Shown in pieces: positions 11,492 through 39,224 of a stretch of DNA of 64,000 nucleotides (positions within the stretch are counted from its first letter, which is position 1; each line of letters opens with the position of its first letter). The position numbers were made by a program, and so were the translations under genes. Source of the stretch: Pseudomonas hormoni (lineage in GTDB: Bacteria > Pseudomonadota > Gammaproteobacteria > Pseudomonadales > Pseudomonadaceae); contig NZ_CP075566.1 of NCBI RefSeq assembly GCF_018502625.1, positions 2,831,001 to 2,895,000 of the forward strand, read 5' to 3'. The notes beneath the pieces are model-generated. The model was given only the letters and a program-made list of their open reading frames with translations. It searched no databases and had not been told where the DNA came from.

Positions 11492-14098
11492 CTAACGAGC
11501 TTCCTCGAAGAGGCCTATCAACTCATTGAAAGCACCAATATCCAGCGGCCGGCTCAGGAAATAGCCTTGACCTTCATCGCACGATACCGCCTTCAGCAAT
11601 TTCAAGTGATCGGCCGTTTCAATGCCCTCAGCGGTAACGGTCAGCGATAACGCACGTCCCAGGCCCACGATAGCCCGGATGATCGCCTTGTCATCCTCGC
11701 TATCGGCCAGCCTGTTCAAAAAGCTGCGGTCAATTTTCAGGCCGTCGAACGGGAATGCGCGAAGGTAGCTCAGCGATGAATATCCCGTTCCGAAGTCGTC
11801 CATTGATATCCGTACGCCGAGACGTTTGAGCGTACGCATTACCTCAATTGCACCGGTGGCGTCTTCAAGCATGACGCTTTCGGTAATCTCCAGCTCAACA
11901 CGGGCAGGGTTGATTCCTGAGTCGGTGAGTGTTTTCTGAATGCGCTCGACCAGATTGCCTTGTTTGAATTCGGTCGGTGACAGGTTGACTGATACGAACA
12001 AACTTTCCGGCCACCGTGCGGCGCAGCGGCACGCGGTATCGAGAACCCAGTTGCTCAGGGAAAGAATCAGTCCGGATTCCTCGGCAATCGGAATGAACGT
12101 GTCGGGAGGTATCAAACCGCGCTCAGGATGTTGCCAACGGACCAGCGCTTCGGCCCCCACCATCTGACCGTCAGCGATACGAAAGCGTGGCTGGAAATGC
12201 AGCCGCAGCTCTCCATGTTTGATCGCGAAGCGCAGGTCACTTTCCAGTTGACGGCGCTCAATGATCCTGGCGTTCATATCGCCGGCATAAAAGCGCCAGG
12301 TGTTACGCCCTCCGGCCTTGGCTTCGTACAGTGCGATATCCGCATAGCGAAGCAGTTCGGTCGCCTCGCAGGCGTCATGAGGCGCCATCGCAATGCCAAC
12401 ACTGGCGCTGACGAACACTTCCTGCTCATCGATCGTTATCGGCTGCTCGACGGACTCGATCAAGCGGCGACAGAGCGTCTCGACTTCTTCCTGGGAACTC
12501 ACGTCGGTCAGGATCAATACAAACTCATCCCCGCCGACCCGAGCAACCAGGTCGCCATGGCGCACGCAGTCTGCCAGGCGACTCGACACTTCATTGAGGA
12601 CCAGATCACCTGCGGCATGCCCGAGCAAGTCATTCACCGGTTTGAAACGATCCAGGTCCAGGCTGAGCATGACCAGCGGCTGGTCTATCGTCGGCAATGC
12701 CTTGAGTTTACCGTCGAGAAACTCTTGAAGACGGGTTCTGTTCGGTAGCCCGGTCAGGGCGTCATGTTGTGAGAGGAATTCGATACGCCGACGGGCTTCG
12801 ACTTCCTCTGTCACATCCGTCGCAGTCCCCCGGAACCCTCCACCCGCCATTTTTCGAGCCGAAAGACGAGTGATTCGCTCCTGGCCTTCGGTATCGACGT
12901 ATCGGCACTGAATGCTGATATCCGGACGACGGTTCGGGATGCTGAGCCACTGAGCCAGCGTGCCCAGTTCGGTGCTCAGCAGATCATCGATCACCGCACC
13001 AATCCAGACGTCTCTGGAGAGCCCCGTCACGCCTTCGAATCGTTCTGACAAATAGGTGAAATGCCACTCGGGATCAATTTCCCATACCCAGTCCGAGCTG
13101 GCTTCAACGACGTCGCGAAAGCGTGCTTCGCTGGTGGCAAGGGCGTCCTGACTGCTTTGCAGTGACGCATAGCTGGCATCAAGTGCCAGCGCACCAGCGG
13201 TCGTGCGACGCAAAATGACCCACGTCATCAGGCACACCAGTAACGCGGCAATGCCGATCAATGGCAACCCTATCCCCAACAACCGCAGGCCCGGCCTTTC
13301 CGGACTCCATTGCAGGCTGCCGGCCGAACCGTCATCGCCCAGAGGAAGGAGCGACGCAGTGCCCGTTTCGCCGGACGTCGCAACGTGCAGACGATCGACC
13401 CCGAAATCGTCGCCGATCATCTGCAGCTTGGCGCTGTTCAACACGTCGACGAAAACCAGCACTGAAGGTGGCCCGTCATCAGGCACCACTGTCGGATCGG
13501 TTCCCGGCGTAATAGCTGCTGCCGCGACGAGGGCGGGCACTCCTCCCACATTGATGAAGGCTGTTGTCGGCGTCTCTGTTTCCGCTCCTGCACGCGCCTT
13601 ATCAAGAATCCCGGCGATGGACTGCTTGAGCCACTCAGTGACTTCCACGGATTTCAGCTCACCCTTGACCACAGAGTAAACAGTGCGATCGACGTCGTTG
13701 ATGACAAACAGTCCCTGGACCCCGAAATCCGTATAAAGCGTTGGTCCGACGTTCTGTCGTACGAAGGCCCAGTCAGGGTCCACTTCGGTATGCAGGTGCT
13801 TGTAGGCGTCGCCCCAGAATGCGTAATCCTTGACGGTCGAGCGCAGCGATTTTTCCAGCGATTGGACTGCCTTCTTTGTGTAGAACGCGCTTTCGGCCTC
13901 CTCCGTCCGGTCTAGATCATGTGCAAGGTAAACGAGTGAATAGCTGGCCAGTAAAAACACGCCTGCCAATAGACCCACGAACTTGAACAGCGAGGCCCGA
14001 GCCAGTACCACGCTGGAACGACGGGAGGAAGAAGGGTTACTGGAGGCGAGACTGTTCGGCATAAATTCCCGCTTGTCGTTGGAAAAAGTACTTTGCAT
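11492..14098 (-). CDS. CHASE4-PAS-GGDEF-EAL membrane c-di-GMP signalling protein
   Basis: The product has 868 residues. A membrane segment at 36-60 and another near 271-297 flank a periplasmic CHASE4 sensor (KDYAFWGDAYKHL, TDFGVQGLFVI). A PAS domain (320-430), a GGDEF domain with RVGGDEF at 520-526 and an EAL domain with GAEALVRW (649-656) and DDFGTGYSS (767-775) follow. Both active-site signatures look intact, so it could make or break c-di-GMP. The ATG at 14062 has a closer GGGAA site than the ATG at 14098 and may be the real start. It is a single gene. It could influence the c-di-GMP-binding glycosyltransferase encoded at 25-27 kb, but nothing in the sequence shows that link. Confidence 0.92.
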   Translation of the reverse strand: MQSTFSNDKREFMPNSLASSNPSSSRRSSVVLARASLFKFVGLLAGVFLLASYSLVYLAHDLDRTEEAESAFYTKKAVQSLEKSLRSTVKDYAFWGDAYKHLHTEVDPDWAFVRQNVGPTLYTDFGVQGLFVINDVDRTVYSVVKGELKSVEVTEWLKQSIAGILDKARAGAETETPTTAFINVGGVPALVAAAAITPGTDPTVVPDDGPPSVLVFVDVLNSAKLQMIGDDFGVDRLHVATSGETGTASLLPLGDDGSAGSLQWSPERPGLRLLGIGLPLIGIAALLVCLMTWVILRRTTAGALALDASYASLQSSQDALATSEARFRDVVEASSDWVWEIDPEWHFTYLSERFEGVTGLSRDVWIGAVIDDLLSTELGTLAQWLSIPNRRPDISIQCRYVDTEGQERITRLSARKMAGGGFRGTATDVTEEVEARRRIEFLSQHDALTGLPNRTRLQEFLDGKLKALPTIDQPLVMLSLDLDRFKPVNDLLGHAAGDLVLNEVSSRLADCVRHGDLVARVGGDEFVLILTDVSSQEEVETLCRRLIESVEQPITIDEQEVFVSASVGIAMAPHDACEATELLRYADIALYEAKAGGRNTWRFYAGDMNARIIERRQLESDLRFAIKHGELRLHFQPRFRIADGQMVGAEALVRWQHPERGLIPPDTFIPIAEESGLILSLSNWVLDTACRCAARWPESLFVSVNLSPTEFKQGNLVERIQKTLTDSGINPARVELEITESVMLEDATGAIEVMRTLKRLGVRISMDDFGTGYSSLSYLRAFPFDGLKIDRSFLNRLADSEDDKAIIRAIVGLGRALSLTVTAEGIETADHLKLLKAVSCDEGQGYFLSRPLDIGAFNELIGLFEEAR

Positions 14099-21557: not shown

Positions 21558-22832
21558 TTGTGTTGCGCACTAAAACTGCGCGAGGAAGGCATCATCGCTC
21601 GCCAAAATATTAAAATCCTTTCGATCTTCGGGACCCGTCCGGAAGCCATCAAGATGGCGCCGTTAGTCAAAGCCCTCGCCGCGGAACCGGGCATTGATTC
21701 GCAGATCTGCGTCACCGGCCAGCATCAAAGCATGCTGAAACAGGTGCTGGATCTGTTCGACCTCAAGGCTGATTACACCCTTGATGTGATGACGCCACAC
21801 CAGACGCTCAACTCGCTGACCGCGGCGTTATACGCAGCGATTGACCCAGTGCTGGAATCGACCCGCCCGGACCGGGTGCTGGTGCATGGCGACACCACCT
21901 CAGCCATGGTCGCCGCGATGGCGGCGTTTCATCGACGCATTCCGGTCGGCCACGTGGAGGCCGGGCTGCGAACCGGGGATATCTACAGCCCGTGGCCGGA
22001 AGAAATGAACCGTCGCTGCATCGACCTGGGCGCGGACATGCTATTCGCGCCGACCCACGAGTCGTGCCAGAACCTGCTCGACGAACGCCTGCAGGGTCGC
22101 ACCTTCGTGACCGGCAATACGGTGATCGACGCGTTGCAGATGACCGCGCGACGCATCGAGCAGGACGCCGACTTGCGGGCCAGCCTGGACCAGCAGTTTT
22201 CGTTCCTGCAGAGCGGCCGCAAAGTCCTGCTGGTCACCGGGCATCGTCGGGAAAACTTCGGCGAAGGCTTCCTCGATATCTGCAAGGCCCTGAGTCATCT
22301 GGCCCGGCGCGCGGATATCCAGATCGTCTATCCGGTGCATTTGAACCCCAATGTCATCGGCCCGGTCACCGAGCAACTGGGCGATCTGCCCAACGTGCAC
22401 CTGATCAAGCCGCTGGATTACCTGGCCTTCGTACGCCTGATGCAACGCGCCCACGTGATCCTCACTGACTCCGGTGGCGTGCAGGAAGAAGCGCCGTCAC
22501 TGGGCAAACCGGTGCTGGTCATGCGTGACGTAACGGAACGCCCGGAAGCGGTCGCGGCGGGCACGGTTCGCCTGGTTGGCACCTCACCGGACTCGATCAT
22601 CGCCGGCGTCAACGCGCTGTTCGATGACGATCTGCTGTGGCGTCGATGCTCCCAGGCAGCCAACCCTTACGGGGATGGCAAGGCCAGTTCGCGCATCGTC
22701 GACGCCCTGATGGGACGCCCGGTCGATGATTTCGTCGTGGCTCGCGTGCTGCCCAGGTTCCACCCGACCGCGGTTGCCATGCCCGAGCCACACCGGCCCG
22801 AAAAAAACCAACCGGCCTTCACCTCTCTATAA
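21558..22832 (+). CDS. wecB: UDP-N-acetylglucosamine 2-epimerase (non-hydrolysing)
   Basis: The enzyme converts UDP-GlcNAc to UDP-ManNAc in the cytoplasm. Family motifs are complete: ILSIFGTRPEAIKMAPLV, VHGDTTSAM, GHVEAGLRTGD, VTGHRRENFGEGF and SGGVQEEAPSLGKPVLVMRDVTERPEA. The product has up to 424 residues, about 40 longer than usual through a C-terminal tail (VLPRFHPTAVAMPEPHR...). No ATG precedes the conserved core. The TTG at 21558 is the first possible start, while a strong GAGGAAGG site stands just before ATC codons at 21591/21594, so the true start is uncertain. It is the first gene of the operon and presumably supplies UDP-ManNAc to the downstream glycosyltransferase. Confidence 0.92.
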   Translation: MCCALKLREEGIIARQNIKILSIFGTRPEAIKMAPLVKALAAEPGIDSQICVTGQHQSMLKQVLDLFDLKADYTLDVMTPHQTLNSLTAALYAAIDPVLESTRPDRVLVHGDTTSAMVAAMAAFHRRIPVGHVEAGLRTGDIYSPWPEEMNRRCIDLGADMLFAPTHESCQNLLDERLQGRTFVTGNTVIDALQMTARRIEQDADLRASLDQQFSFLQSGRKVLLVTGHRRENFGEGFLDICKALSHLARRADIQIVYPVHLNPNVIGPVTEQLGDLPNVHLIKPLDYLAFVRLMQRAHVILTDSGGVQEEAPSLGKPVLVMRDVTERPEAVAAGTVRLVGTSPDSIIAGVNALFDDDLLWRRCSQAANPYGDGKASSRIVDALMGRPVDDFVVARVLPRFHPTAVAMPEPHRPEKNQPAFTSL

Positions 22833-22874
22833 ACCAAAAACGCTCCTCCCCTTATCAGCTCGAGATCTACCTGA

Positions 22875-25088
22875 ATGAAGTCTTCCGTTGCCATCCATAC
22901 GGGTGCGCTCAGTGCCCTTGCCTGTGGCGTGAGCCTGCTCGCGCTCATGCCGACCTTTGCCTTGGCCGCGGACAGCCCGCTCACCCAGGCGATCAACCGG
23001 CTCAACGCCGACACTCGCCAGGAGCGTGAGGTGCGCTTGAGCGATCTGGGGATCGACGCGCCGATCATTCTCGGTTCCACCGATGCCCGTCGCGAGCTGT
23101 ATCTGCCGGTGCCGGCGGGTGTGCCGCTGACGGAGGCCACCCTGAATTTCGACGCCAGCTATCTCAATGGCGAAGGCGGCCGCAACACGTTGCTGCTGTC
23201 GCTGGACGGTTATCCGGTGCGCGCCGAAGGGCTCAGCGAACCTCAGGGCGACGCCAGCGCCACGCTCGGCGTGGACAAGAAAGCGCGGGACAGCGGCTCG
23301 CTGCGCCTGGGCATTGCCTGGTCGTCCATCGTGTCCCGCGTGTTGTGCGAAGACGAACGCGCCATCGGCAACGTCTTGCGCATCGAACCGGACACGCGCC
23401 TCACCTACAGCTACGACGCCAGCCAGTTGCAGGACGTCGGCGCCGCGTGGACGGCATTGCCGGGCAAACCGGGCATCATGGTCGCGTCCGGCACCTTGTC
23501 CGCCGAAAGCTACGATGCGGCGTGGCGCCTCGGGGTAGCGCTGGAGCGGATCGGCAAGCACAGCCGCATCCTGCCCTTCCCTGCCATTCAAGACAGCGTT
23601 GACCTCAGCGGCCTGCGCATTCCCGTCGAACTGCTGACGATTCCGGCGTTCGCCAGCCTCAACGGCAAGGGTGCGCATGTTCTGGCGGACGCTGCACAAA
23701 TCGGCGCCCTGCTGATGCTGGGCCAGACGCCGAACGTCCAGGCGGACCTGGCCATCAACGACCCGCAACTGCTCAAGGCCGTCAATGCATCTCTGGACGC
23801 GCTGCAGAACCAGATAAAAGGTCTCGACGCCACGGCCGCCAACGCACTGTTGCAGTGGCGTGAGCGGCATATCAACGCAGGTCTGGCCGCCACCGGTACT
23901 GACAACGTGCGCCTGGCACTACTGGGCACACGCCCGGTGCTGATGATCGCGCCGCAAGCCACCGGCAAGGCTCTGGCCTTGTTCAGCTCGGCCTGGAACA
24001 CACTGGCACGCAGCCGCCAATTGACGGTCAGCGAAGCACAGTTGCCATTGAGCGCCGACGGCCGTGTGGCCTTGTCGCGCCTGGGCGGTAATCCTGGCGC
24101 CATCGACGTGCTGGCCAAATCCGACTGGAGCACTTCATTCCCGCTCGGCAGCGTGGCCTATGACGGCCGCTTGCCAGTCAAGGCGGTGATCGATGTGTCT
24201 GCCGCGCCTGGCGCCTCGGACACCGCGCCGGTGGCCTCGCTGTTTCTCAACGACTATCTGATTGGCGCGCAACAGCTCGTGGCCAACGGTGAAATGCAGC
24301 GCATCGAAGCGCGTATCCCGCGTTATGCGGTGGGCGCAACGAACGTTTTGCGTGTGTCGTTCCAGCGCCAGCCAGTGAGTGATCGCTGCCTGGAAACGCC
24401 ACAAGCCTTCCCGGTCTCGGTGCTGCCAACCAGCCATATCGTGCTGGATAAAACGGCCCTGGGTGATGACTTCTCCGGCATGGCTGCGCGCTTTGCCATG
24501 GACACGCAAATCCTCGTGCCCCAGGCCTACCTCGACCACCCGGCAAGCAGCTTGCCGCAAGTGATTTCGGTGGCTGACGGCGCCGGGGTTTCGCCGCTGC
24601 GGGCACAACTGAAAGTCAGTGCCGATCCAAAGATTTCGGTCACACCGGACAAAGCCTTCCTCGCCTTCGAGCTGCCGATCAAGGACAGCAAGGAATCGGT
24701 ACAAGCGGATGAGCAGGGTCGCCTGCGCATCAATCACAAGGATCAGGTGTTGCTGGACGTGCATCCCCTCAACCACCTGGCCTCGTTGCAAGTGGTCAAT
24801 GCCGGCGGACAGCACGGTCTGGTCTATCGACCGCTGGGCACTGACGCACCACGCTTCGCCAAACAGATTCTGCTGACCCGCGGCGATGTGGCGATCCTCG
24901 GCGACAACGGTGCACTGACCACCTTCGACACCCAGGATCCGAGCGGCAACCAATTGATCGACAACGAAGAACCCAAGGGTCTCGACGCCTGGCGCACGCC
25001 ATCGCTGTTGTGGCTGATTCCGGGTGGCATCCTGTTGGTTCTCATCCTGTTGCTGGCCGGCCGTAACGCCCGTCGCAATCGCCAGTAA
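22875..25088 (+). CDS. BcsB-like periplasmic polysaccharide export/synthase partner
   Basis: The product has 737 residues. A signal or anchor segment at the N-terminus (about 10-32) and a C-terminal membrane helix (LLWLIPGGILLVLILLLAG, then Arg-rich) enclose a large periplasmic part. That part alternates carbohydrate-binding-like and flavodoxin-like regions as in BcsB (ELYLPVPAGVPLTEATLNFDASY, NTLLLSLDGYPVRA, VASLFLNDYLIGAQQL). BcsB of cellulose synthase guides the nascent glycan through the periplasm and binds the synthase. It stands between wecB and nfrB, 12 bases before nfrB, so it is likely the periplasmic partner of that glycosyltransferase rather than of cellulose synthase, which is not encoded here. 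A GAGAT site precedes the ATG. Confidence 0.85.
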   Translation: MKSSVAIHTGALSALACGVSLLALMPTFALAADSPLTQAINRLNADTRQEREVRLSDLGIDAPIILGSTDARRELYLPVPAGVPLTEATLNFDASYLNGEGGRNTLLLSLDGYPVRAEGLSEPQGDASATLGVDKKARDSGSLRLGIAWSSIVSRVLCEDERAIGNVLRIEPDTRLTYSYDASQLQDVGAAWTALPGKPGIMVASGTLSAESYDAAWRLGVALERIGKHSRILPFPAIQDSVDLSGLRIPVELLTIPAFASLNGKGAHVLADAAQIGALLMLGQTPNVQADLAINDPQLLKAVNASLDALQNQIKGLDATAANALLQWRERHINAGLAATGTDNVRLALLGTRPVLMIAPQATGKALALFSSAWNTLARSRQLTVSEAQLPLSADGRVALSRLGGNPGAIDVLAKSDWSTSFPLGSVAYDGRLPVKAVIDVSAAPGASDTAPVASLFLNDYLIGAQQLVANGEMQRIEARIPRYAVGATNVLRVSFQRQPVSDRCLETPQAFPVSVLPTSHIVLDKTALGDDFSGMAARFAMDTQILVPQAYLDHPASSLPQVISVADGAGVSPLRAQLKVSADPKISVTPDKAFLAFELPIKDSKESVQADEQGRLRINHKDQVLLDVHPLNHLASLQVVNAGGQHGLVYRPLGTDAPRFAKQILLTRGDVAILGDNGALTTFDTQDPSGNQLIDNEEPKGLDAWRTPSLLWLIPGGILLVLILLLAGRNARRNRQ

Positions 25089-25100
25089 CGGAACCCTTCG

Positions 25101-27215
25101 ATGACGTCGCTTTATTGGCCCTACTGGCTGGCCCACTACTACAGCTTCCTGGAGATCTCGACCATCGTGGTCGCGGTGCTGATCCTGATCTCCAGCCTGG
25201 ACGATCTGTTCATTGACCTGTGGTACTGGTCTCGACGCCTGTTCCGCAAGTTCACCGTGGACCGAAAATACCGGCCGCTGACCGCCGAGCAATTGATGGC
25301 CCGGGACGAACAGCCGCTGGCAATCATGGTCCCGGCCTGGCTGGAATACGACGTCATCGCGCCGATGATCGAGAACATGGTGTCGACCCTGGATTACCAG
25401 AACTATGTGGTCTTCGTCGGCACCTACATCAACGATCAGCGCACCATTGATGAAGTGGAGCGCATGCGTCGGCGCTACAAGCAACTGCATCGAGTGGAAG
25501 TCCCGCATGCCGGGCCGACCTGCAAGGCTGACTGCCTGAACTGGGTGATCCAGGCGATTTTCCTGTACGAAAAAACCCACGGCATGACCTTCGCCGGCGT
25601 GGTTCTGCACGACAGCGAAGACGTGCTGCACCCAATGGAATTGCGTCTATTCAACTACTTGCTGCCGCGCAAGGACATGATTCAGTTGCCCGTGGTGTCG
25701 CTGGAGCGCAACTGGTACGAGTGGGTGGCCGGCACCTACATGGACGAATTCGCCGAATGGCACGGCAAGGATCTGGTGGTGCGTGAAAGCATGACCGACA
25801 CGGTGCCGTCCGCCGGGGTCGGCACCTGTTTCTCCCATCGTGCCCTGCGTGTGCTGGCCGGGGAGACCCAGAACCAGCCATTCAACACCGACAGCCTCAC
25901 CGAGGACTACGACGTTGGCGCGCGCCTGGCCAAGGTCGGAATGAACGCGATCTTCGTGCGTTTCCCGGTGCAGTTTCGCGTGCTGCGTAAATCCTGGTTT
26001 CGCAAGCCTTACGAATCGACCCTGAAGATGCCGTTGTGCGTGCGCGAATTCTTTCCCGATACCTTCCGCACCGCGTTCCGCCAGAAAGCTCGCTGGACGC
26101 TGGGCATTGGCCTGCAAGGCTGGGAACAAATGGGTTGGAACGGTTCGCTGGCCAACCGTTATTTGCTGTTCCGTGATCGCAAAGGCGTGGTGACTGCGTT
26201 TGTCAGCATCATCGCCTACGTGATTCTGGTGCAGCTTCTGGGCCTGATCATCCTGCGCCAGAGCGGCCTGTGGGACGTGAGTTTCCCGACGCCGTTCGAG
26301 ACCAATGGCTTCATCCAATACCTGCTGCTGGCCAACGGCATCGCGCTGGCCTGGCGTATCGCCCACCGCTGCTATTTCACCACCGTGCTGTACGGCTGGC
26401 AGCACGGTTTGCTATCCATCCCGCGTATGGTCGTGGGTAACTTCGTCAACTTCATGGCCGCTTCCCGCGCGTGGCGCATGTTCATCGTCGGCAAGGTGAT
26501 GAACCGCAAACTGGTGTGGGACAAGACCATGCACGACTTCCCGTCCACCGACCTGGTCGCGGCCGCACCGCGCAAGCTCGGCAGCGTGCTGCTGTCCTGG
26601 CAGGCAATCAACGAAACCGACCTGCAAAGTGCCCTCATCGAACAGAAAACCCGGCACATGCCATTGGGGCGGATTTTGCTCAGCAACGGTTGGCTGGATG
26701 ACGAGACACTGGCGGAAGCCATCGCCTTCCAGAATGACCTGCCGCGGGTGTTCGATGTGGCCGCCAAGGCGCAGTCGTCGACCCTGACCCTGGACGATGA
26801 ATTCGCCCTGCGCTGGCGCGTAGTGCCGCTTGGTTTGAATGCCGACGGCCGCGCACAAGTTGCCGTGGCCAGCCCGTTGCCGGCCGCCGGCCTGCAACAG
26901 GTCAGCGAGGTACTGGGTAGCGAACCGGTGCAGCTGATTGCCCGGGAAAGCGAAATCGTTGCGCAGTTGCGTCAACTGAACGTGCGCGATGGCCAAGCCC
27001 TGCCCGATGCCCGCGCACCACTGTTGGGTGACCTGCTGATCGAAATGGGCCTGCTGGATCGCGACGAGTTCAACCGCGCCATGTTGCAGTACCGCCCGCA
27101 GCGTCACGGGCGCATCGGCGACTATCTGGTCGATAGCGGCGTGTTGCCGCGCGCCACTATCGAAAAGGCCGTGGCACGTCAGCACAGTCACTACCCTGCG
27201 GAGCTTTCAGTATGA
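25101..27215 (+). CDS. nfrB: NfrB-like inner-membrane glycosyltransferase with MshEN-type c-di-GMP domains
   Basis: The product has 704 residues. There are membrane segments near 16-32, 364-386 and 405-440. A GT2 catalytic domain lies between, with the acidic motif HDSED (170-174), TEDYDV (267-272) and QKARW (328-332, the QxxRW motif). The C-terminus holds two GSPII_E_N/MshEN modules: MPLGRILLSNGWL (520-532) and RIGDYLVDSGVLPRATIEKAVARQ (671-694, close to the c-di-GMP-binding pattern). The E. coli homologue NfrB polymerises an N-acetylmannosamine glycan under c-di-GMP control and serves, with NfrA, as phage N4 receptor. The stop overlaps the nfrA start by four bases, showing translational coupling. 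Confidence 0.9.
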   Translation: MTSLYWPYWLAHYYSFLEISTIVVAVLILISSLDDLFIDLWYWSRRLFRKFTVDRKYRPLTAEQLMARDEQPLAIMVPAWLEYDVIAPMIENMVSTLDYQNYVVFVGTYINDQRTIDEVERMRRRYKQLHRVEVPHAGPTCKADCLNWVIQAIFLYEKTHGMTFAGVVLHDSEDVLHPMELRLFNYLLPRKDMIQLPVVSLERNWYEWVAGTYMDEFAEWHGKDLVVRESMTDTVPSAGVGTCFSHRALRVLAGETQNQPFNTDSLTEDYDVGARLAKVGMNAIFVRFPVQFRVLRKSWFRKPYESTLKMPLCVREFFPDTFRTAFRQKARWTLGIGLQGWEQMGWNGSLANRYLLFRDRKGVVTAFVSIIAYVILVQLLGLIILRQSGLWDVSFPTPFETNGFIQYLLLANGIALAWRIAHRCYFTTVLYGWQHGLLSIPRMVVGNFVNFMAASRAWRMFIVGKVMNRKLVWDKTMHDFPSTDLVAAAPRKLGSVLLSWQAINETDLQSALIEQKTRHMPLGRILLSNGWLDDETLAEAIAFQNDLPRVFDVAAKAQSSTLTLDDEFALRWRVVPLGLNADGRAQVAVASPLPAAGLQQVSEVLGSEPVQLIARESEIVAQLRQLNVRDGQALPDARAPLLGDLLIEMGLLDRDEFNRAMLQYRPQRHGRIGDYLVDSGVLPRATIEKAVARQHSHYPAELSV

Positions 27216-29755
27216 ACCGCCCCTTGCTGACCCTCATGGCCACGGGGCTGAGCCTGCTGCCCGCGTTTGTGCACGGCGAAACACTGCCGCTGCCGTTGAC
27301 CGGCCCGGCCTATGTCACCGCCAACGAGGCGTACAGTGCCTACGAGCGCAAAGACTATGACCTGGCCATCGCCAAGGCACGCGAAGCCTTGCGTCAGCGC
27401 GCCGACATCACGCGCCTGAATACGCTGATTACGCTGGCTCAACGCGACAAGGAATTGCGTGACCATCCCAAGCGCTATCCGCAGTCTCGTCAGGCTCCCG
27501 GCTTCGGTGCCGCGGCAAAGGCTTTCAAGGCCTATGATCGCGATGATTTCGGCGCGGCGGCTCAAGCGGCACGTATCGCCATCGCTCAAGCACCCAAACG
27601 CATGGATTATCGACTGCTGCTGATCGAGTCCCTGCAGCGCCAGCAACATCTGCAGGACGCAGATCAGGCCACCACCCAGGCCCTGGCCGTGTTCCCGAAC
27701 GACGATACGTTGCTGATGCGCCGCGAAGCGATTCGTCGGCAACTGGCGGCGCCACTGGCGGTTGCGGGGTATCGCGCCCTGGAGCAAGGCCGTGTGCCGC
27801 TGGCTGTGGACCAGGCCAGGAAAGCCGTGGCCTGGGCGCCGGAAATCGGCGCCAATCAGCAACTGCTGATCAGTGCCCTGCTCGCCGCCAACGACTACCG
27901 TGGCGCCGAACTTGCGGCGTCAGGCGCATTGGCCCAGGACGACGGGGAAATCGCACCGTGGATTCTGCGCAGTTATGCCCTCGATCGACAGGGCAAAACC
28001 CAGGCGGCCCAGGCGGACCTGAATCACGCCCTGGCCATCGATGGCCTGCTGGCAACAGAAACCCGCGACATTCGTTTCTTCGCCGCCGACACCGCACTGG
28101 CCCACGGCGAGCCGCAACAAGCGCTCGATCATCTGCAGGCACTGGCCGACGATGACAACGGTGAAGTGGCCCGCCGACGTACCGCTGCTCGCATGGCGTT
28201 GCGACAGAAAGTCAACGGCTCGAACGCTGTGGCGCGCTTTCCGGCACCGGCCCTGAATTGTCAGGAAACCGCCTTCGGCCTGGTCTGCGATATCTGGCCG
28301 GGCAACCAGCGCGACGGCGGAACCGAGATGGCCGCTCAGGCCTACGCCGCGCTGGCTCGCAAAGACCCGGCAACAACGGGTGCCCTGGCGACTGAAGCCA
28401 TTCGCCGTGCGCCGCAGAATCCGGCTTACCGACGTCTGCTGGTCAGCGCCCTGAGCGAGCAGAAACGTGTGCCCGAAGCCATCGCGGCGGCCAGCGATGG
28501 TCTGAAGAACACCGGCGATGACGCTCGGCTGCTGGCCCAACGCGGTCGCCTGCGTCAGCAATCGGGTGACGATTCCGGTGCACGTCAGGACTTTACTCAG
28601 GCCCTGGCTCTGGGCAGTCTACCCGCTTACGAAGAGGCCAGCCTGTATGCCGCCATCGGCCAGCGCCGGACCGCGCGCGAACGATTGCAACAAGCGCGGG
28701 ACACCGGCGAACTGGAGTCGATGAGCGATTTGCAGATCGCTTATTTGTCGGTCCAGACCGGCGATGACGACGGCGCCCACGCGTCATTTCGTAAATCCGA
28801 TGCCGTCACCCGACTCACGCCGACCGCCACTCAGGACGCGGCCTATAACGCCATGCGGGTCAATGACGACGAGCAGGCCGTCGCCTACTTCAAACGCGTC
28901 ATCGATGCGCAAGCATCCGGTGATCTGGACATGCCTGCGCAACAGCTGTTCGACACCCGCCGCGCAGTGGGCGATGTGTCGCGCAGGATCGGCTTGACCA
29001 GCACCACCAGCTATCGCGGCAACAATTCCAGCAGTGGCCTGAGTTCAGCGCCGAGCAGCGGCAGTAGCAGCAATGACAGCCTGCAAAACAGCACCGAACT
29101 GTCCTGGCGCCCTTTGGGTTATCGCAACGCTCGCTTTGTCGAACTCTACGGCCGCGTCACTGACACGCTGTGGAGCAAGAACGGCGATTCGGATACCGGC
29201 TTCGATGCGCTGCAAGGCGCCGTCGGAGTCCGGGTCAAACCGTTCACGTCGCTGAACGTGATGGCCGCCGTCGAACGCACATTCCCGATTGGATCATCGG
29301 ACGTCGATGGCGACTGGCTGGTGCGCCTGGGTTATGGCTCAAGCGTCGGCACCGATCTGCGGGTCGACGCCTCCAGTTGGTGGACCTCGCAGTTCTTCGC
29401 TGAAGCCGGTCATTACATCAACGACTCGCGTGACTATTTCAACAGCGAATGGCAGGTCGGTCGCAGCTACGCCATCGGCGGCGCGGGCTCGCGCTGGGTC
29501 AGTTTTCCCCATGTGGTGGCCGCGTTCGACTACGACTCGAAAATGAACAGCGCGACCGATGCCGATGGCAGCACCGACTCGTCATCCGGCAAGGCCGGGG
29601 GCGTGGGTGTCGGCAATAACGTCCGCTACTGGTTCCGCGAGGACGCGTACAACGCGCCCCGCTCCTACGTGGATTTTTCCCTGCAGTACCGCGTGAAGGT
29701 GTTGGGCGATGATCGCGCTCAAGGCGTATTCGGTCGCCTGACTTACTCCTATTGA
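27212..29755 (+). CDS. nfrA: NfrA-like TPR and outer-membrane protein
   Basis: The product has 847 residues. A signal peptide (ending near VHGE) is followed by many TPR-like helical repeats (EAYSAYERKDYDLAIAKAR, KAFKAYDRDDFGAAAQAAR, LLVSALSEQKRVPEAIAAAS). The last 270 residues resemble the NfrA C-terminal domain: a Ser-rich linker (SSGLSSAPSSGSSSN) and then amphipathic strands ending in FGRLTYSY, an outer-membrane-type terminus. In E. coli NfrA is the outer-membrane phage N4 adsorption protein and presents or exports the glycan. Both ends are coupled to neighbours by short overlaps. Confidence 0.87.
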   Translation: MNRPLLTLMATGLSLLPAFVHGETLPLPLTGPAYVTANEAYSAYERKDYDLAIAKAREALRQRADITRLNTLITLAQRDKELRDHPKRYPQSRQAPGFGAAAKAFKAYDRDDFGAAAQAARIAIAQAPKRMDYRLLLIESLQRQQHLQDADQATTQALAVFPNDDTLLMRREAIRRQLAAPLAVAGYRALEQGRVPLAVDQARKAVAWAPEIGANQQLLISALLAANDYRGAELAASGALAQDDGEIAPWILRSYALDRQGKTQAAQADLNHALAIDGLLATETRDIRFFAADTALAHGEPQQALDHLQALADDDNGEVARRRTAARMALRQKVNGSNAVARFPAPALNCQETAFGLVCDIWPGNQRDGGTEMAAQAYAALARKDPATTGALATEAIRRAPQNPAYRRLLVSALSEQKRVPEAIAAASDGLKNTGDDARLLAQRGRLRQQSGDDSGARQDFTQALALGSLPAYEEASLYAAIGQRRTARERLQQARDTGELESMSDLQIAYLSVQTGDDDGAHASFRKSDAVTRLTPTATQDAAYNAMRVNDDEQAVAYFKRVIDAQASGDLDMPAQQLFDTRRAVGDVSRRIGLTSTTSYRGNNSSSGLSSAPSSGSSSNDSLQNSTELSWRPLGYRNARFVELYGRVTDTLWSKNGDSDTGFDALQGAVGVRVKPFTSLNVMAAVERTFPIGSSDVDGDWLVRLGYGSSVGTDLRVDASSWWTSQFFAEAGHYINDSRDYFNSEWQVGRSYAIGGAGSRWVSFPHVVAAFDYDSKMNSATDADGSTDSSSGKAGGVGVGNNVRYWFREDAYNAPRSYVDFSLQYRVKVLGDDRAQGVFGRLTYSY

Positions 29756-29763
29756 GGACTTGC

Positions 29764-30417
29764 ATGAACGTTCGAATCTTTTTGTGGCTGGGCCTTGGCC
29801 TGCTCCCGTCGTGGGCCCAGGCCGCTCCCGAAATTGCCCAGTTGTACGCGCCAAAATTGCCCGAGGGTTCGGCGTGGCTGCGGGTGGTCAATCCATCCGA
29901 CACGGCCATGCAGGTTCGGGTGGGCCAAGGCGTGAGTGTCGCCCTCTCCGCGCAGAGTGCGGTGGCCAGTCCCTTTCAGGTCGTGGACTCGCGACAGCCG
30001 TTGCAGGTCACCGTCAATGGTCGCGAGATACAGGGTCTGAGCGCACCCAAAAGTGCGTGGGTCACGCTGATTCTCGACAGCGATCCGGCACGTGCGCCAC
30101 GCCTGGTGATCGACCCGCCCCTGCGCGGTAAAGACCTGCGCGCGGAACTCAACGTGTACAACCTGGGCAGCGGTTGCGAAAAGGCCAACGTCCAATTGGC
30201 CAATGGCGCTCCGGTATTCAGTCAGGTGCCGTTCAACGGACAAGCCCAGCGCACGATCAACCCGGTGCAGGCGACGCTGGTTGCCAGCTGCAATGAGCAC
30301 AAAAGCCTGCCGTTGAAGCTGGAACCCTTCAAGGCCGGCGATCGTTACAGCCTGTTCCTGATCGGCTCCGGCCAGGCACCACGATTGATTGGCCTTGTGG
30401 ACCAGACCGCGCCATGA
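29764..30417 (+). CDS. AlgF-like periplasmic polysaccharide O-acetylation protein
   Basis: The product has 217 residues when started at the ATG behind a GAGGA site; a TTG 12 bases earlier also overlaps the nfrA stop. It has a signal peptide ending in AQA. The mature N-terminus (IAQLYAPKLPEGSAWLRVVNPS) matches AlgF of the alginate system (ALYGPTAPKGSSFVRVYN), and the body repeats the same beta-rich pattern (LVIDPPLRGK, RAELNVYNLG, INPVQATLVA). AlgF helps acetyl transfer from the membrane to the polymer in the periplasm. Two cysteines occur that could pair. Four-base overlap with the next gene. Confidence 0.75.
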   Translation: MNVRIFLWLGLGLLPSWAQAAPEIAQLYAPKLPEGSAWLRVVNPSDTAMQVRVGQGVSVALSAQSAVASPFQVVDSRQPLQVTVNGREIQGLSAPKSAWVTLILDSDPARAPRLVIDPPLRGKDLRAELNVYNLGSGCEKANVQLANGAPVFSQVPFNGQAQRTINPVQATLVASCNEHKSLPLKLEPFKAGDRYSLFLIGSGQAPRLIGLVDQTAP

Positions 30418-31403
30418 CCACTCCCTTCCAACACGAACGCTTTACCCCTCGCCTGGCGGTTTCCACCCTGATTGCGGGTCTGTTGCTGATCCTCTCGAGC
30501 ACCGCCGTCCAAGCGGCATCGGCCGTGATCACGGGCAACGGCGGGTGGTTGTTCCCGGCCTGGGAAAGCCTGAGCAAGGTCGACAACACCGGCACTGCCC
30601 GCAACATTGCGCTGGTCAAGGAACTCCAGCAGCAACTCGAACGCGAACATATCGGGCTGATCGTGCTGGTGGTGCCGATGAAAGCGCCGTTCTATGCCCA
30701 ACGCCTGCCGGCCGATCAGCCGATCAGCGCGGCGGTGATGCAGCGTTACGACCACTTGCAAAGTGACCTGACTCGCGCCGGCCTGAGCACGCTGAACATC
30801 AAGCCCATCCTGCAAAAGACCGAGCAAGGCAAACAAACCGCGTTTTACCGCGCCGACTATCACTGGACCGCCTGGAGCGCCGAAAACACCGCCGACGCCA
30901 CGGCGCAACTGATTACCGAACGCTATCGGCTGCAAGGCGAACCCGGTAGTGGCGCCGCACTGGGTCAGTGGTTCGACCGCCGCGCGTTCGGCGACCTGGC
31001 GAGCAACTTTCTACCGGCGATCAAACGCAAGGCGATTGGTCGCGACATCTACACCGTTCGCCATCAGGCAGAAAACGACTTGCTGATCGATGACGCGCCG
31101 GCACCGGTGCAAGTCATTGGCAACAGCTTTGTCCAGCCTTACCTGGGTTTTACCCAGAAGCTCTCCAATGCCCTGGACCGCCCCGTCGCACTGACGTGGA
31201 ACCCCGGCGATGTCGGTCCGTGGGCTACGCTGCTGCAGTACTTGGAGTCGGCGGATTTTGCCCAACACAAGCCGCAAGTGATCGTCTGGCAATTCAATGA
31301 GGGGCAGTTCCATCTCGGCCCCGATGCGACTGCCAACTGGAGCGCCAAAGGCGTCACCTCGCTGAGCCAATGGCATCAGCGCATCAACAAGGCACTGCCG
31401 TGA
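30414..31403 (+). CDS. AlgJ/AlgX-like SGNH O-acetyltransferase
   Basis: The product has 329 residues. A signal or anchor segment at 14-34 precedes an SGNH-hydrolase-like domain. The AlgX/AlgJ signature residues are visible: Asp148-Tyr-His150 in FYRADYHWTAWS and a serine Ser238 in VIGNSFVQPY. These enzymes place acetyl groups on exopolysaccharide in the periplasm. The usual membrane partner, the MBOAT protein AlgI, is not in this operon, so the acetyl donor route is open. It overlaps the AlgF-like gene and the next gene by four bases each. Confidence 0.82.
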   Translation: MTTPFQHERFTPRLAVSTLIAGLLLILSSTAVQAASAVITGNGGWLFPAWESLSKVDNTGTARNIALVKELQQQLEREHIGLIVLVVPMKAPFYAQRLPADQPISAAVMQRYDHLQSDLTRAGLSTLNIKPILQKTEQGKQTAFYRADYHWTAWSAENTADATAQLITERYRLQGEPGSGAALGQWFDRRAFGDLASNFLPAIKRKAIGRDIYTVRHQAENDLLIDDAPAPVQVIGNSFVQPYLGFTQKLSNALDRPVALTWNPGDVGPWATLLQYLESADFAQHKPQVIVWQFNEGQFHLGPDATANWSAKGVTSLSQWHQRINKALP

Positions 31404-32260
31404 ACATTTTTGGCTACACCGCCAGCCGCGCGACCGTGGCAGCGGTGTTGTTTGCCGTCACCCTCAGCGCAGGAACCAGCATGCTCTACATGACAAACAA
31501 GGCCCTGAGCCCGGGGATTGTCGGCATCGTCTGGCAGCCGGATAACAAAACGGTCGGCATCAAAGGCCACTGGGAAAAACTCGGTGCGCGCGAACTGCTG
31601 GTGCAATGGACCGTCGTTGACGATCAGGCATTTGTTCCCGGCACCGGCCTGCCCAGTGTGCCGGTGCTGCCCGACTGGACGCGCATCGCCAAGGCGCCCT
31701 GGGCGCAGGATGTGATCCTCGGGTTGGCCGGTTATTTCAGCGAGAATCGCTCGCGGGACAACATCGAGCAACTGGCTAAAGTCTCGGAACGCATCGCCAA
31801 ACTGCCGACGCCACTCCACGTCACCGGCTGGTATTTCCCTGCCGAAGTCGACCCCAGCTGGACACGCGCCAAAGAATTGCCCGCCCTGCTCGCTAAACTG
31901 CCGCGACCGTTGTGGATCAGCGTTTACGACGGCGCAAATATCGGCCCCGCCGCCACCGCCGAATGGCTCAAGCAGTGGCTGCCGAATGACATTGGCGTGT
32001 TTTTCCAGGATGGCGTCGGTGTCTACGCCCGCACCGCACCGGTCGCCCGAACCTACGCCGACGCCCTGCGCCAGCGTCTGGGCAAAGACCGGGTGCGGAT
32101 CATCGTCGAAGCCTTCCGCCCCAACTTCGGTGGCGGATTCCGCTCTGCCACCGCCGCCGAACTCAAACCGCAGTTGGCCGCCTATGACGGTTATCCGCTC
32201 TACCTGTTCGACGGGCCGCATTACGTGACGCCTGAGTTGGTGGAGCAACTCGGGCGATAA
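31400..32260 (+). CDS. Putative exported glycosidase-like (DUF4434-type) protein
   Basis: The product has 286 residues when started at the GTG that overlaps the preceding stop as GTGA, in line with the other junctions of this operon. A hydrophobic N-terminus (VAAVLFAVTLSAGTSMLYM) anchors or exports it. The rest looks like a TIM-barrel of the DUF4434/glycoside-hydrolase kind: VGIVWQPD, LLVQWTVVD, VTGWYFPAEVD, PLWISVYDG, IGVFFQDGVG, VRIIVEAFRPN, YPLYLFDGPHY. Acidic residues at strand ends (Glu in FPAEVD, Asp in FFQDG, Glu in IVEAF) are candidate catalytic groups. A role in trimming the polymer is inferred from position only. Confidence 0.7.
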   Translation: MNIFGYTASRATVAAVLFAVTLSAGTSMLYMTNKALSPGIVGIVWQPDNKTVGIKGHWEKLGARELLVQWTVVDDQAFVPGTGLPSVPVLPDWTRIAKAPWAQDVILGLAGYFSENRSRDNIEQLAKVSERIAKLPTPLHVTGWYFPAEVDPSWTRAKELPALLAKLPRPLWISVYDGANIGPAATAEWLKQWLPNDIGVFFQDGVGVYARTAPVARTYADALRQRLGKDRVRIIVEAFRPNFGGGFRSATAAELKPQLAAYDGYPLYLFDGPHYVTPELVEQLGR

Positions 32261-35865: not shown

Positions 35866-36927
35866 ATGAAGCGCTTTATCCAAGGTGAACATCGAGACCA
35901 AGCACCTTACTTCCCGAGAGCCTCGACGACTACGTCAGCGATACCAATCCGGTGCGCGTGGTCGACGTCTTTGTCGACGAACTCGACCTGGTCAATCTGG
36001 GTTTTGAAGGAGCCATTCCAGCCGATACTGGCCGGCCGGCTTACCACCCCGCGATCCTGTTGAAGATCTACATCTACGGCTATCTCAACCGCATCCAATC
36101 GAGCCGACGTTTGGAGCGAGAAGCCCAGCGAAACGTCGAACTGATGTGGTTGACCGGGCGTTTGATGCCGGACTTCAAGACCATCGCCAACTTCCGAAAA
36201 GACAACAGCAAGGCCATCCGAGGCGTCTGTCGCCAGTTCGTTGTGCTGTGTCAGCAGTTGGGATTGTTTGGAGAACATCTGGTCGCCATCGATGGCAGTA
36301 AATTCAAAGCAGTCAACAACCGCGACCGCAACTTCACCAGCGCCAAACTGAAGCGGCGAATGGAAGAAATTGAATCGAGCATCAGCCGTTATCTGGCGGC
36401 ACTCGATGCTGCCGATCGGCAAGAACCAACAGCTTCCGAGCCCAGCGCCGTGCGGCTGGAAGAGAAAATCGCCAAGCTCAAAACTCAAATGAAGGAGCTT
36501 CAAGCGATCGAAATCCAGCTCAATGAATCGCCGGATAAACAGGTCTCACTGACCGATCCAGACGCCCGGTCCATGATGACACGCGGCACAGGAATCGTCG
36601 GCTACAACGTGCAGACAGCGGTCGATACGCAGCACCATTTGATCGTTGCGCACGAGGTGACCAACGTCAGTTCCGACCGCGATCAACTCAGTTCAATGGC
36701 CAAGCAGGCCCGCGAGGCGATAGCGTCAGAAACGTTGTCGGTGGTGGCGGACCGAGGTTATTTCAAAAGCGAACAAATCCTGGCTTGTCACGATGCCGGC
36801 ATCACCGCCTATGTGCCCAAACCGATGACCTCTGGAGCCAAGGCTGACGGGCGTTTCAATAACGATGCCTTCGTCTATGACGCGGCAAAAAACGAATACA
36901 TTTGCCCGGCTGCAGAGGCGCTGATCT
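35866..36927 (+). pseudogene. IS1182-family transposase, 5' part (frameshifted and interrupted)
   Basis: Translation starts as MKRFIQGEHRDQ and then must shift by one base near 35902 to continue as LLPESLDDYVSDTNPVRVVDVF, the standard IS1182 N-terminus; one base appears to have been lost. From there the frame is open through GRPAYHPAILLKIYIYGYL, MPDFKTIANFRKDN, VAIDGSKFKAVNN and VVADRGYFK to EALI, where the IS66 unit cuts in. The matching C-terminal part resumes at 40081. Confidence 0.85.
36920..36927 (+). repeat. 8-bp target-site duplication, left copy
   Basis: GCTGATCT stands directly before the left inverted repeat of the IS66 unit and recurs directly after its right end. Eight bases is the duplication length of the IS66 family. 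Confidence 0.85.
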
Positions 36928-36957
36928 GTAAGCGTCCGCCCAACACACCTTGCGTGG

Positions 36958-37090
36958 TTAAACGGGCGTCCACCTATGCGGCAGCAACTCGTCAATTTCA
37001 CTCGCCCGCTGCATCGGCGGGCGTGTCAGGACGTCCTTCAAATACTCGTATGGATCATGCCCATTGAGTCGCGCCGACTGGATCAAACTC
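36958..37090 (-). pseudogene. Diverged 3' fragment of an IS66 tnpC
   Basis: On the minus strand the frame reads SLIQSARLNGHDPYEYLKDV followed by LTRPPMQRASEIDELLPHRWTPV, which aligns with the C-terminus of the intact tnpC next door at roughly 80% identity. It lacks everything upstream. It borders the left inverted repeat, so this end of the unit comes from a related but distinct IS66 element. Confidence 0.8.
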
Positions 37091-37697: not shown

Positions 37698-39224
37698 TTA
37701 AACGGGCGCCCATTTGTGTGGCAGCAGCTCGGCAATCTCACTTGCCCGCTGCGTCGGTAGGCGCGTAAGTACATCCTTCAGGTAAGCGTACGGATCATGC
37801 CCATTAATCCGCGCCGACTGGATCAAACTCATGATCGCAGCCGCACGTTTGCCACTACGTAACGAGCCTGCAAACAACCAGTTCGAGCGCCCAAGTGCCC
37901 ACGGCCGGATTTGATTCTCGCACCAGTTATTATCGATGGGCACAGCACCGTCATCGAGATAGCGCGTCAGCGCTATCCAGCGTTTTAGGCTGTAATCCAA
38001 CGCCTTGGCGATGGCCGAGCCTTCAGGCACAAGCTGCCTCTGGGCGATCATCCAGGTATGAAGTGCGTCGATGATCGGCGCTGCTTTTTCCTGCCGTATT
38101 CGCTGCCGGACACCCGGTTCCAGCTCGCGTACCTCTCGTTCAATTTCGTACAAGGCTGCGATGTGGTGCAGCGCTTTTTCGGCGATCTGGCTCTTGTTGG
38201 TCGCGTGCAAGTCGAAGAACTTGCGGCGTGCATGGGCCATGCAGCCGATCTCCGTGACGCCCAGTTCAAAGCCTGCCTTGTAGCCAGCGAAGTCGTCGCA
38301 GACCAGCTTGCCGTTCCAGTTGCCAAGGAAGTTTCGGGCATGTTCGCCAGCACGGCTCGGACTGAAGTCATAAACGACCGCCGCCAGATCGGAGAACTGG
38401 CTGGTGGCATAGGCCCAGACATAAGCGCGATGAGTTTTCTTCGCGCCAGGCGTCAGCATTTGTACCGGGGTCTCGTCGGCGTGGACGACGCCGTGCGTCA
38501 GCACGGCTTCGCGCAGCGCATCAACCAGCGGCTGTAATTGCACGCCGCAGTTGCCCACCCATTGCGCCAAGGTCGAGCGAGCAATAGGCAGTCCGGCGCG
38601 GCCGAAGATTTTCTCCTGCCGATACAGCGGCAGATGGTCGGCAAACTTGGCCACCATGACGTGGGCCAGCAGGCCCGCCGTCGGGATGCCTTTGTCGATG
38701 ACGTGCGCCGGTACCGGCGCTTGGATCAGCGTTTCGCACTGCTCGCAGGCCCATTTCCCACGGATGTGGCGCTCGACGGTGAAGACACCCGGCGTGTAGT
38801 CGAGCTTTTCGCTCGCATCTTCGCCGATACGCTTGAGGGCGCAGCCGCATTGGCAGTGGCTGTTGTCCGGTTCGTGATGGATCAGCGTGCGAGGAAACTG
38901 CGGCGGCAGGGCAGCGCGTTTGGGTTGCTGGCGTACTTTGCCTTCAACGGGCGCCGGTTGCAGCGCTGCAAGCTCAGCTTCGATGGCGGCGATATCGGTG
39001 TCGATCAAGTCGTCGAGCAAGCTGGCTTGATCCGGACTTAGTTGCTCGCTGCGCTTGGCAAACTTGAAGCGTTTGAGCAGCGCGATCTCGTGGGCCAGCT
39101 TCTCGTTGACCGACTTGTGATGAGTGATTTGCTTGTCCATCGTCTCGACGCGCTGGGTCAACTGCGCCGCCAAGGCACGCAGTTCTTCAGGGTTTAATTG
39201 ATCGAGATTCGGATGCGAAGTCAT
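37698..39224 (-). CDS. tnpC: IS66-family transposase TnpC
   Basis: The product has 508 residues and appears intact. A leucine-rich coiled N-terminus is followed by a zinc-finger-like cysteine cluster (CQCGCALK and CEQCETLIQ). The DDE catalytic residues lie in VHADETPVQML, VCDDFAGYKAGF and NNWCENQIRPWALGR. It catalyses cut or copy of the element ends. It follows tnpB after about 80 bases, in the standard order tnpA-tnpB-tnpC. Confidence 0.93.
   Translation of the reverse strand: MTSHPNLDQLNPEELRALAAQLTQRVETMDKQITHHKSVNEKLAHEIALLKRFKFAKRSEQLSPDQASLLDDLIDTDIAAIEAELAALQPAPVEGKVRQQPKRAALPPQFPRTLIHHEPDNSHCQCGCALKRIGEDASEKLDYTPGVFTVERHIRGKWACEQCETLIQAPVPAHVIDKGIPTAGLLAHVMVAKFADHLPLYRQEKIFGRAGLPIARSTLAQWVGNCGVQLQPLVDALREAVLTHGVVHADETPVQMLTPGAKKTHRAYVWAYATSQFSDLAAVVYDFSPSRAGEHARNFLGNWNGKLVCDDFAGYKAGFELGVTEIGCMAHARRKFFDLHATNKSQIAEKALHHIAALYEIEREVRELEPGVRQRIRQEKAAPIIDALHTWMIAQRQLVPEGSAIAKALDYSLKRWIALTRYLDDGAVPIDNNWCENQIRPWALGRSNWLFAGSLRSGKRAAAIMSLIQSARINGHDPYAYLKDVLTRLPTQRASEIAELLPHKWAPV

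Follow-up and report, generated by a model that had tools for sequence, protein, structure and literature searches.

A predicted Nfr-type exopolysaccharide operon with a partial acylation module in Pseudomonas hormoni

The operon and its proteins

We analysed a window of 64,000 nucleotides (bases 2831001-2895000) from the single-contig 6.48 Mb genome of Pseudomonas hormoni, in which seven genes at 21558-32260 form an operon joining an Nfr-type exopolysaccharide core to an alginate-like acylation pair, with no membrane-bound O-acyltransferase (MBOAT) gene among them. The first-pass annotation had reported seven genes on one strand with gaps no longer than 42 bases, and all of these open reading frames (ORFs) were recovered on the + strand with that spacing. 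They are wecB (21558..22832), a bcsB-like gene (22875..25088), nfrB (25101..27215), nfrA (27212..29755), an algF-like gene (29764..30417), a gene for an SGNH O-acyltransferase-like protein (30414..31403) and a gene for a DUF4434 or YbcH-type protein (31400..32260). Along the operon the spacing from each stop to the next ORF start is 42, 12, -4, -4, -4 and -34 bases. The algF-like ORF opens with TTG at 29752, the likelier start being ATG at 29764 (an 8-base gap), the DUF4434 ORF opens with ATG at 31370, the likelier start being GTG at 31400 (a 4-base overlap), and the start of wecB (TTG 21558) is uncertain. Gene order is identical in the 21 loci that hold all seven genes, the bcsB-like gene being split in two of them. 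Measured against eight relatives, all seven genes are under purifying selection (median ratio of nonsynonymous to synonymous substitution, dN/dS, 0.05 to 0.18), which argues that the operon is not a product of chance.

WecB, encoded by the first gene, matches the non-hydrolysing UDP-GlcNAc 2-epimerases (PF02350 384 bits; TIGR00236 467 bits, cut-off 210) and, from its family, would supply UDP-N-acetylmannosamine (UDP-ManNAc); the genome has three PF02350 genes, this one included. The BcsB-like protein matches PF03170 at 23.5 bits (cut-off 21) in residues 50-186, over about 138 of 606 positions, with no single stretch passing alone. Its profile comparison with E. coli BcsB in hhalign is not significant (E 0.17), and a search against the PDB gave no match. 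NfrA combines tetratricopeptide repeats (TPR) with an outer-membrane C-terminal domain, which makes it the predicted export pore; the C-terminal family PF13283 (NfrA_C) scores 195 bits (cut-off 25), and TPR_19 scores 22.7 bits, under its cut-off of 25.

NfrB is a glycosyltransferase family 2 (GT2) synthase with an MshEN-type C-terminus that reaches 1181 bits against NF012033 (cut-off 537) and 668 bits against the equivalog model of E. coli NfrB (NF008411, cut-off 1170), so that it is not an equivalog. At 39% identity to E. coli NfrB, it appears from family and motifs to resemble NfrB in its working, and we do not file it as the E. coli ortholog. The GT2 motifs HDSED (170-174), TED (267-269) and QKARW (a QxxRW motif, 328-332) are present. 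In E. coli NfrB, residues D169, D267 and W330 of the glycosyltransferase and L490 and G491 of MshEN have been mutated and N4 infection assayed (PMC8669469), and these positions correspond to D171, D269, W332, L493 and G494 of the operon protein. The C-terminus is predicted to be a binding domain for cyclic di-GMP (c-di-GMP), with 36 bits to PF05157 and 83 bits to NF053729 in two stretches. The earlier proposal of a ManNAc-type exopolysaccharide is in keeping with these family, motif and MshEN matches, which support a synthase-dependent polymer with a c-di-GMP-type control domain.

The protein encoded by the last gene resembles E. coli YbcH (b0567; BLAST E 1e-6, 26% identity), scores 47.6 bits against NF007404 (cut-off 344), and has an AlphaFold model with a mean confidence (pLDDT) of 88 that begins with an N-terminal helix (signal or anchor). 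Two glutamates, E149 and E237, are invariant in 20 sequences and lie in or at the ends of model strands 141-150 and 232-237, which are barrel strands 4 and 7. Glycosidases of clan GH-A carry their catalytic glutamates at the ends of strands 4 and 7. The protein is accordingly modelled as a predicted retaining glycosidase barrel of GH-A-like type, in line with the trimming enzyme that had been suggested for this gene. A search of the PDB gave nothing usable (best E 0.45), and neither this protein nor NfrA had a match in PHROGs.

The remaining two genes form the acylation pair. The AlgF-like adaptor matches PF11182 at 60.1 bits (cut-off 34.4), and the SGNH protein matches PF16822 (ALGX) at 209 bits (cut-off 26.5), its profile being closer to AlgJ (104 bits) than to AlgX (53 bits). 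The carbohydrate-binding module of AlgX, PF16824, was not found in the operon SGNH protein and is present in an AlgX of the same genome. The catalytic triad is intact (D148, H150, S238) and is conserved among 109 SGNH sequences (D in 109, H in 109, S in 108 with one gap), a pooled number that, like that for the C-terminal peptide below, counts some genomes twice owing to overlapping genome samples. Median dN/dS for the two genes of the pair is 0.18 and 0.12. The alginate-type O-acetylation parts named in the first-pass annotation are therefore present as a pair with an intact triad, as far as families and motifs indicate, and the kit is incomplete, because it has no MBOAT.

Distribution in Pseudomonas and length of NfrA

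Among 398 Pseudomonas genomes, 132 encode an NfrB over the NF012033 cut-off. Tallied by hand from the listing, 51 genomes have the type found in this operon (type A), eight have a form of about 570 residues (A3), 77 have an E. coli-like form (B) and one has a fragment, with five genomes carrying two types; one locus with no match (L096) and one of 4.5 kb (L127) stand outside all counts. Every one of the 51 type A loci keeps the order wecB, bcsB-like, nfrB, nfrA, DUF4434, with wecB at the head of the cluster. Three of them (L057, L102, L119) have a split bcsB-like gene, and in L049 nfrB is interrupted by a stop. Both genes of the acylation pair are present in 21 type A loci and both are missing in 30, so the synteny expected across Pseudomonas holds for the core in 51 of the 398 genomes and for all seven genes in 21.

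Every one of the 21 type A loci that have the pair encodes a full-length NfrA (847 to 860 residues). In the 30 that lack it, 21 NfrA proteins have internal in-frame deletions of TPR sequence and nine are full length. In the numbering of the operon NfrA, the deletions span 191-381 (15 loci), 230-343 together with 366-497 (two loci), or 289-337 together with 366-497 (four loci). Changes of state were traced on an NfrB tree by a quick method that gave long-branch warnings for the outgroups, and on this tree the pair changed state at least four times and NfrA length at least eight times. In the alginate system AlgX binds the TPR protein AlgK (PMC9734138), and by analogy the optional TPR stretch of NfrA is possibly a docking site for the AlgF/SGNH pair.

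The same genome holds a second Nfr locus of type B (wecB-nfrB-nfrA-DUF4434; G000:C1:2087288-2094772, or L039:7288-14772), in which wecB again adjoins nfrB; its NfrB is 54% identical to that of E. coli, and the locus is closer to the E. coli N4 glycan receptor (NGR) system than the operon is. Types A and B occur together in two of the 398 genomes, this one and G211 (whose NfrB is 99% identical to the operon NfrB), with 9.9 expected (hypergeometric p 0.0009). As this p value is uncorrected for relatedness, we rejected near exclusion of the two types as a statistically established result.

On its 5' side the operon is preceded by about 540 bases without a listed ORF, following an ORF that ends at 21015. 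Its 3' neighbours are a GFA-domain gene, a 2OG-Fe(II)-oxygenase-like ORF, a malate:quinone oxidoreductase gene and insertion sequences, and two transposase genes of DUF772/DDE type and IS66 lie downstream at 35952-37067 and 37698-39224. No cyclase gene adjoins the operon among the neighbours searched; a CHASE4-GGDEF-EAL gene lies at 11492-14098 on the opposite strand.

Sister clusters and known relatives

A scan of genomes with the SGNH protein as query gave 104 relatives, of which 80 were kept and mapped, and a locus was scored as having its own MBOAT at 100 bits or more within the fetched stretch. The counts include seven Xanthobacter loci without wecB, bcsB-like gene or nfrB in the stretch, as well as L140 (a 3.1 kb contig), L149 and L172. 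An MBOAT of its own is present in 44 of the 45 loci outside Pseudomonas that carry the SGNH gene, whereas 25 of the 35 Pseudomonas loci have none above 100 bits (L188, with a match of 80 bits, is counted as having none).

The loci fall into types by the make-up of the acylation genes. In 41 loci, which we call Dlt-type, a pair of SGNH genes and AlgF are combined with an MBOAT, a carrier protein and an adenylating ligase; Nfr clusters of this make-up were noted in L063-L070, L130-L139, L141-L142, L144-L148, L150-L171, L173 and L177. The hosts of the 41 loci are Achromobacter, Bordetella, Burkholderia, Pandoraea, Trinickia, Delftia, Diaphorobacter, Stenotrophomonas, Xanthomonas, one Alcaligenaceae metagenome-assembled genome (MAG) and, in ten loci, Pseudomonas. 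In the examples inspected, the ligase of L068 and L167 is nearest to DltA and the MBOAT of L068 resembles DltB, none of them reaching a model cut-off (336 bits for the ligase against DltA, below cut-offs of 560 and 476); the carrier of L066 belongs to the PP-binding proteins. In both loci inspected for it (L137 and L167), algF is followed by an acyl-CoA-dehydrogenase-like gene. We also considered a proline/pyrrole pathway for these sister clusters, given their ligase, carrier and dehydrogenase-like gene; the ligase is nearest to DltA, and the dehydrogenase scores 212 bits against RedW (cut-off 650). In the accessible literature our searches found no description of an exopolysaccharide cluster with DltA-like and AlgI-like genes.

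AlgI-type loci (13, one of them on a cut contig, L149, so classed solely because the contig ends) lack the ligase and the carrier and consist of AlgF, an MBOAT and a pair of SGNH genes; they occur in Xanthobacter, Azorhizobium, Herbaspirillum, Janthinobacterium and two Rhizobiales MAGs. The minimal type, AlgF with one SGNH gene only, comprises 25 loci, all in Pseudomonas. Minimal loci of P. aegrilactucae (L143) and apparently P. brassicae (L140, on its 3.1 kb contig) have A3-type neighbours, so that the minimal form seems to have arisen independently twice. The genome of Achromobacter pestifer LMG 3431 (L172) has a second algX-like gene, and the fetched stretch of 20.9 kb contains no Nfr core.

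Loci L063-L070 and L130-L163 (except L140) encode a short NfrB, about 560-577 residues long. For this form Pfam finds no MshEN in L068, a motif comparison shows one half motif in each of L151 and L158, and no MshE motif was found in the short NfrB of Achromobacter type in L145; in Stenotrophomonas the NfrB proteins of L164 and L167, of about 715 residues, retain the motifs. Judging from these domain and motif searches, control of the short synthase by c-di-GMP has probably been lost or moved elsewhere.

Several published systems resemble the operon. In E. coli the genes form the operon nfrBA-ybcH with WecB supplying the sugar (PMC8669469, PMC8669472), and NfrB and WecB are required for the glycan phenotypes (PMC8669469, PMC8669472). 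Like E. coli NGR, the operon encodes a GT2-MshEN synthase, a TPR/barrel exporter, a probable DUF4434 protein and a UDP-ManNAc epimerase, and keeps the catalytic and c-di-GMP-binding positions; unlike it, the operon adds the BcsB-like gene and the AlgF/SGNH pair, contains wecB, and has an NfrB of lower identity, as given above. The PGR locus of Acinetobacter baumannii is comparable in make-up by its published description, with a BcsB homologue (pgrD), an NfrB-like protein, WecB, a porin and a PgaB-C-like protein (PMC12507263); it differs in that the accessible text mentions no acetylation genes and in having PgrA, a cyclase-like protein without a GGDEF motif (PMC12507263). Similar in gene content is the Achromobacter cluster reported by Sellner in 2021, in which nfrA, nfrB and wecB stand together with a BcsB homologue and with genes homologous to those of periplasmic O-acetyltransferases (PMC8669472); the 13 Dlt-type Achromobacter loci in our set have two SGNH genes, an MBOAT, a carrier, a ligase and AlgF, and an NfrB of about 565 residues. 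Junkermeier and Hengge noted that wecB is linked to nfrB and that Simplicispira suum has a cluster of alginate-like acetyltransferase genes (PMC8669469). With the AlgIJFX proteins of alginate and the WssFGHI proteins of cellulose the operon shares the AlgF family and an SGNH family with a Ser-His-Asp triad, and it differs from both in having no MBOAT and a single SGNH protein without a carbohydrate-binding module.

The view that such a gene set had not been described does not stand, since the Achromobacter cluster (PMC8669472) and the Acinetobacter PGR locus (PMC12507263) had already been reported, and the combination of an Nfr core with BcsB-like and acetylation genes is known in kind. Literature searches, which left most subscription journals out of reach, found no report of the operon as a named Pseudomonas polymer and no earlier description of a partial acylation module. 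What is new rests chiefly on the contrast between Pseudomonas loci that lack an MBOAT and loci elsewhere that have one, and on the sister clusters of Dlt type.

Acyl donor, competing explanations and phage binding

As a whole, the observations are best explained, we think with moderate confidence, by an exopolysaccharide operon of Nfr/PGR type whose acylation pair docks on the TPRs of NfrA and receives acetyl from the AlgI of alginate synthesis. WecB would make UDP-ManNAc; NfrB would polymerise the chain and extrude it across the inner membrane when c-di-GMP binds the MshEN repeats, assisted by the BcsB-like protein; NfrA would pass the chain through the outer membrane; and, within the periplasm, the glycosidase-like DUF4434 protein may trim or guide the chain. 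The AlgF-like adaptor and the AlgJ-class SGNH enzyme, docked on the TPRs of NfrA, would O-acetylate the chain, and because the operon is without an MBOAT of its own, the acetyl groups would be drawn from AlgI (or from AlgI-AlgJ).

At the search threshold the only MBOAT in this genome is AlgI, encoded in a complete alginate operon at 339.6 kb. An MBOAT is present in all 51 genomes with a type A locus and is the sole MBOAT in 16 of the 21 that have the pair. In all 21 of these, this genome included, the AlgI-like MBOAT (taken as AlgI by similarity and length) ends in FLYFQF. MBOATs that neighbour the SGNH gene elsewhere share this ending, in 61 of 63 loci of the pooled set when the genome's own AlgI is included; of the remaining two, one is a split ORF and the other lies at a contig end. 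A motif of the form FXYXXF has been shown to carry the acetyl group in the acyl shuttle of PatA (PMC12148441), and the FLYFQF end fits this motif and a model in which AlgI is shared. In alginate synthesis an acetyl relay of AlgI-AlgJ-AlgF-AlgX has been published, in which AlgF links AlgJ to AlgX (PMC10641220). Alongside the complete alginate operon (L041), the genome carries a second alginate-type cluster (G000:C1:2944001-2964000; L040:2-12202) with algD-, 8-, 44-, K-, E-, G-, X-, L- and A-like genes and without algI, algJ and algF; were its product acetylated, this cluster, too, would depend on a shared AlgI.

Several results weigh against this explanation. The assignment of the BcsB-like protein depends on its weak Pfam match, and the DUF4434 match itself (PF14488, 27.4 bits) falls below the cut-off of 30. 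The association of TPR loss with absence of the pair is not significant on the tree, where there are three independent pairs on supported branches and no contrary one; having only three, we rejected it as statistically established. Branches of uniform state sum to 1.67 without the pair and to 0.87 with it, for which reason the one-sidedness of TPR loss is by itself weak evidence. An MBOAT is equally present in the 30 genomes without the pair, so that its presence does not discriminate, and FLYFQF is not specific, since among 17 other MBOATs ten end in FLYFQF, three in FLYFNF, two in FIYASF and two in neither; with ten of these 17 sharing it, identity of the peptide was rejected as proof that AlgI is shared. 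Nor is AlgI the only candidate donor in two cases: in the minimal locus of P. ovata (L188) the 80-bit MBOAT match lies on the opposite strand where the stretch ends, and G181, which has the pair, has two further MBOATs (ending FLYFQF and FIYASF) 14 to 19 kb from nfrB that could donate instead.

The same glycan machine with a different donor for the pair (another MBOAT or a non-MBOAT carrier such as an acyltransferase-3 protein), or with the pair as a donor-free polymer-binding chaperone or esterase, is in our estimate rather unlikely, though the likeliest of the alternatives. The absence of an MBOAT from the operon speaks for it, as do the finding that AlgJ acts in vitro as an acetylesterase and leaves polymer unacetylated (PMC10641220), the operon protein being nearer to AlgJ, and the pair without a nearby MBOAT behind a different core in L143 and on the short contig of L140. 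It has to contend with the MBOAT that adjoins the SGNH gene in 44 of 45 loci outside Pseudomonas, with the need of the published relay for an MBOAT (PMC10641220, PMC12148441), and with AlgI being the only MBOAT found in the genome, acyltransferase-3 genes not having been searched for. That the glycan is an unacetylated ManNAc type like E. coli NGR, its acetylation genes being passengers in the course of loss, we consider improbable: the pair is missing in 30 of 51 relatives and changed state at least four times on the tree, which speaks for it, but the triad is intact in all type A copies and both genes are under purifying selection (dN/dS 0.18 and 0.12). We give as little credence to a different polymer, for example one based on GlcNAc or mixed sugars, with WecB also serving another pathway. 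The NfrB that falls short of the E. coli equivalog model (668 against 1170 bits) and the three PF02350 genes of the genome favour it; wecB as the first gene in all 51 type A clusters, its place beside the second nfrB, and the published linkage of wecB and nfrB (PMC8669469) count against it.

A more specific form of the favoured explanation, with AlgI shared and the pair docked on NfrA, is offered tentatively, as something we find possible and somewhat doubtful. One acetyl pump would serve two exopolysaccharides, AlgI charging the pair through its FLYFQF end, and acylation would be a plug-in on the Nfr core, docked on an optional run of NfrA TPRs and shaping which phages are able to bind. The states of this plug-in would be none, borrowing from AlgI, an AlgI-type module of its own, and a DltABC-like aminoacylation with an acyl-CoA-dehydrogenase-like enzyme.

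A possible role in phage reception, raised in the first-pass annotation, is supported as a possibility. For PGR in Acinetobacter, phage genetics have been reported: phage StAb3 no longer adsorbs once pgrD is deleted, and mutation of pgrF (wecB) confers resistance (PMC12507263). Residues 440-709 of N4 gp65 match 98 phage records (60 listed), E. coli phages included, and among the matches listed there are 17 Achromobacter records, two Delftia records and 11 Pseudomonas records (eight phages). Four more of the listed records have Campylobacter hosts, and larger E. coli phages match more weakly; records of Acinetobacter phages match a different part of gp65 only. The phages on P. syringae hosts are inbricus, Arace01, BUCT553, Ulitu01, Ulina01 and uligo, and PspYZU01 and Ppu-503 are further Pseudomonas phages with a match. 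The match in inbricus, a member of the Schitoviridae, has 63.5% identity, and uligo belongs to the Autographiviridae; recurrence of the segment in P. syringae phages (records MG018928, MG018929, PP179312, MT941682, PP179315 and PP179317), uligo among them, suggests from sequence similarity a shared glycan-binding domain. Among the sampled genomes, Dlt-type or type A clusters occur in Achromobacter, Delftia and the P. syringae strain GAW0119 (L196).

The operon extends a recently described phage-receptor glycan to plant- and soil-associated Pseudomonas and indicates that its decoration is modular. The Dlt-like sister clusters predict exopolysaccharides decorated with aminoacyl or related esters in Achromobacter, Bordetella, Delftia, Stenotrophomonas, Xanthomonas and Pseudomonas. 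If AlgI is shared, a gene of alginate synthesis would control the chemistry of a second surface polymer, and algI mutants would have to be read differently.

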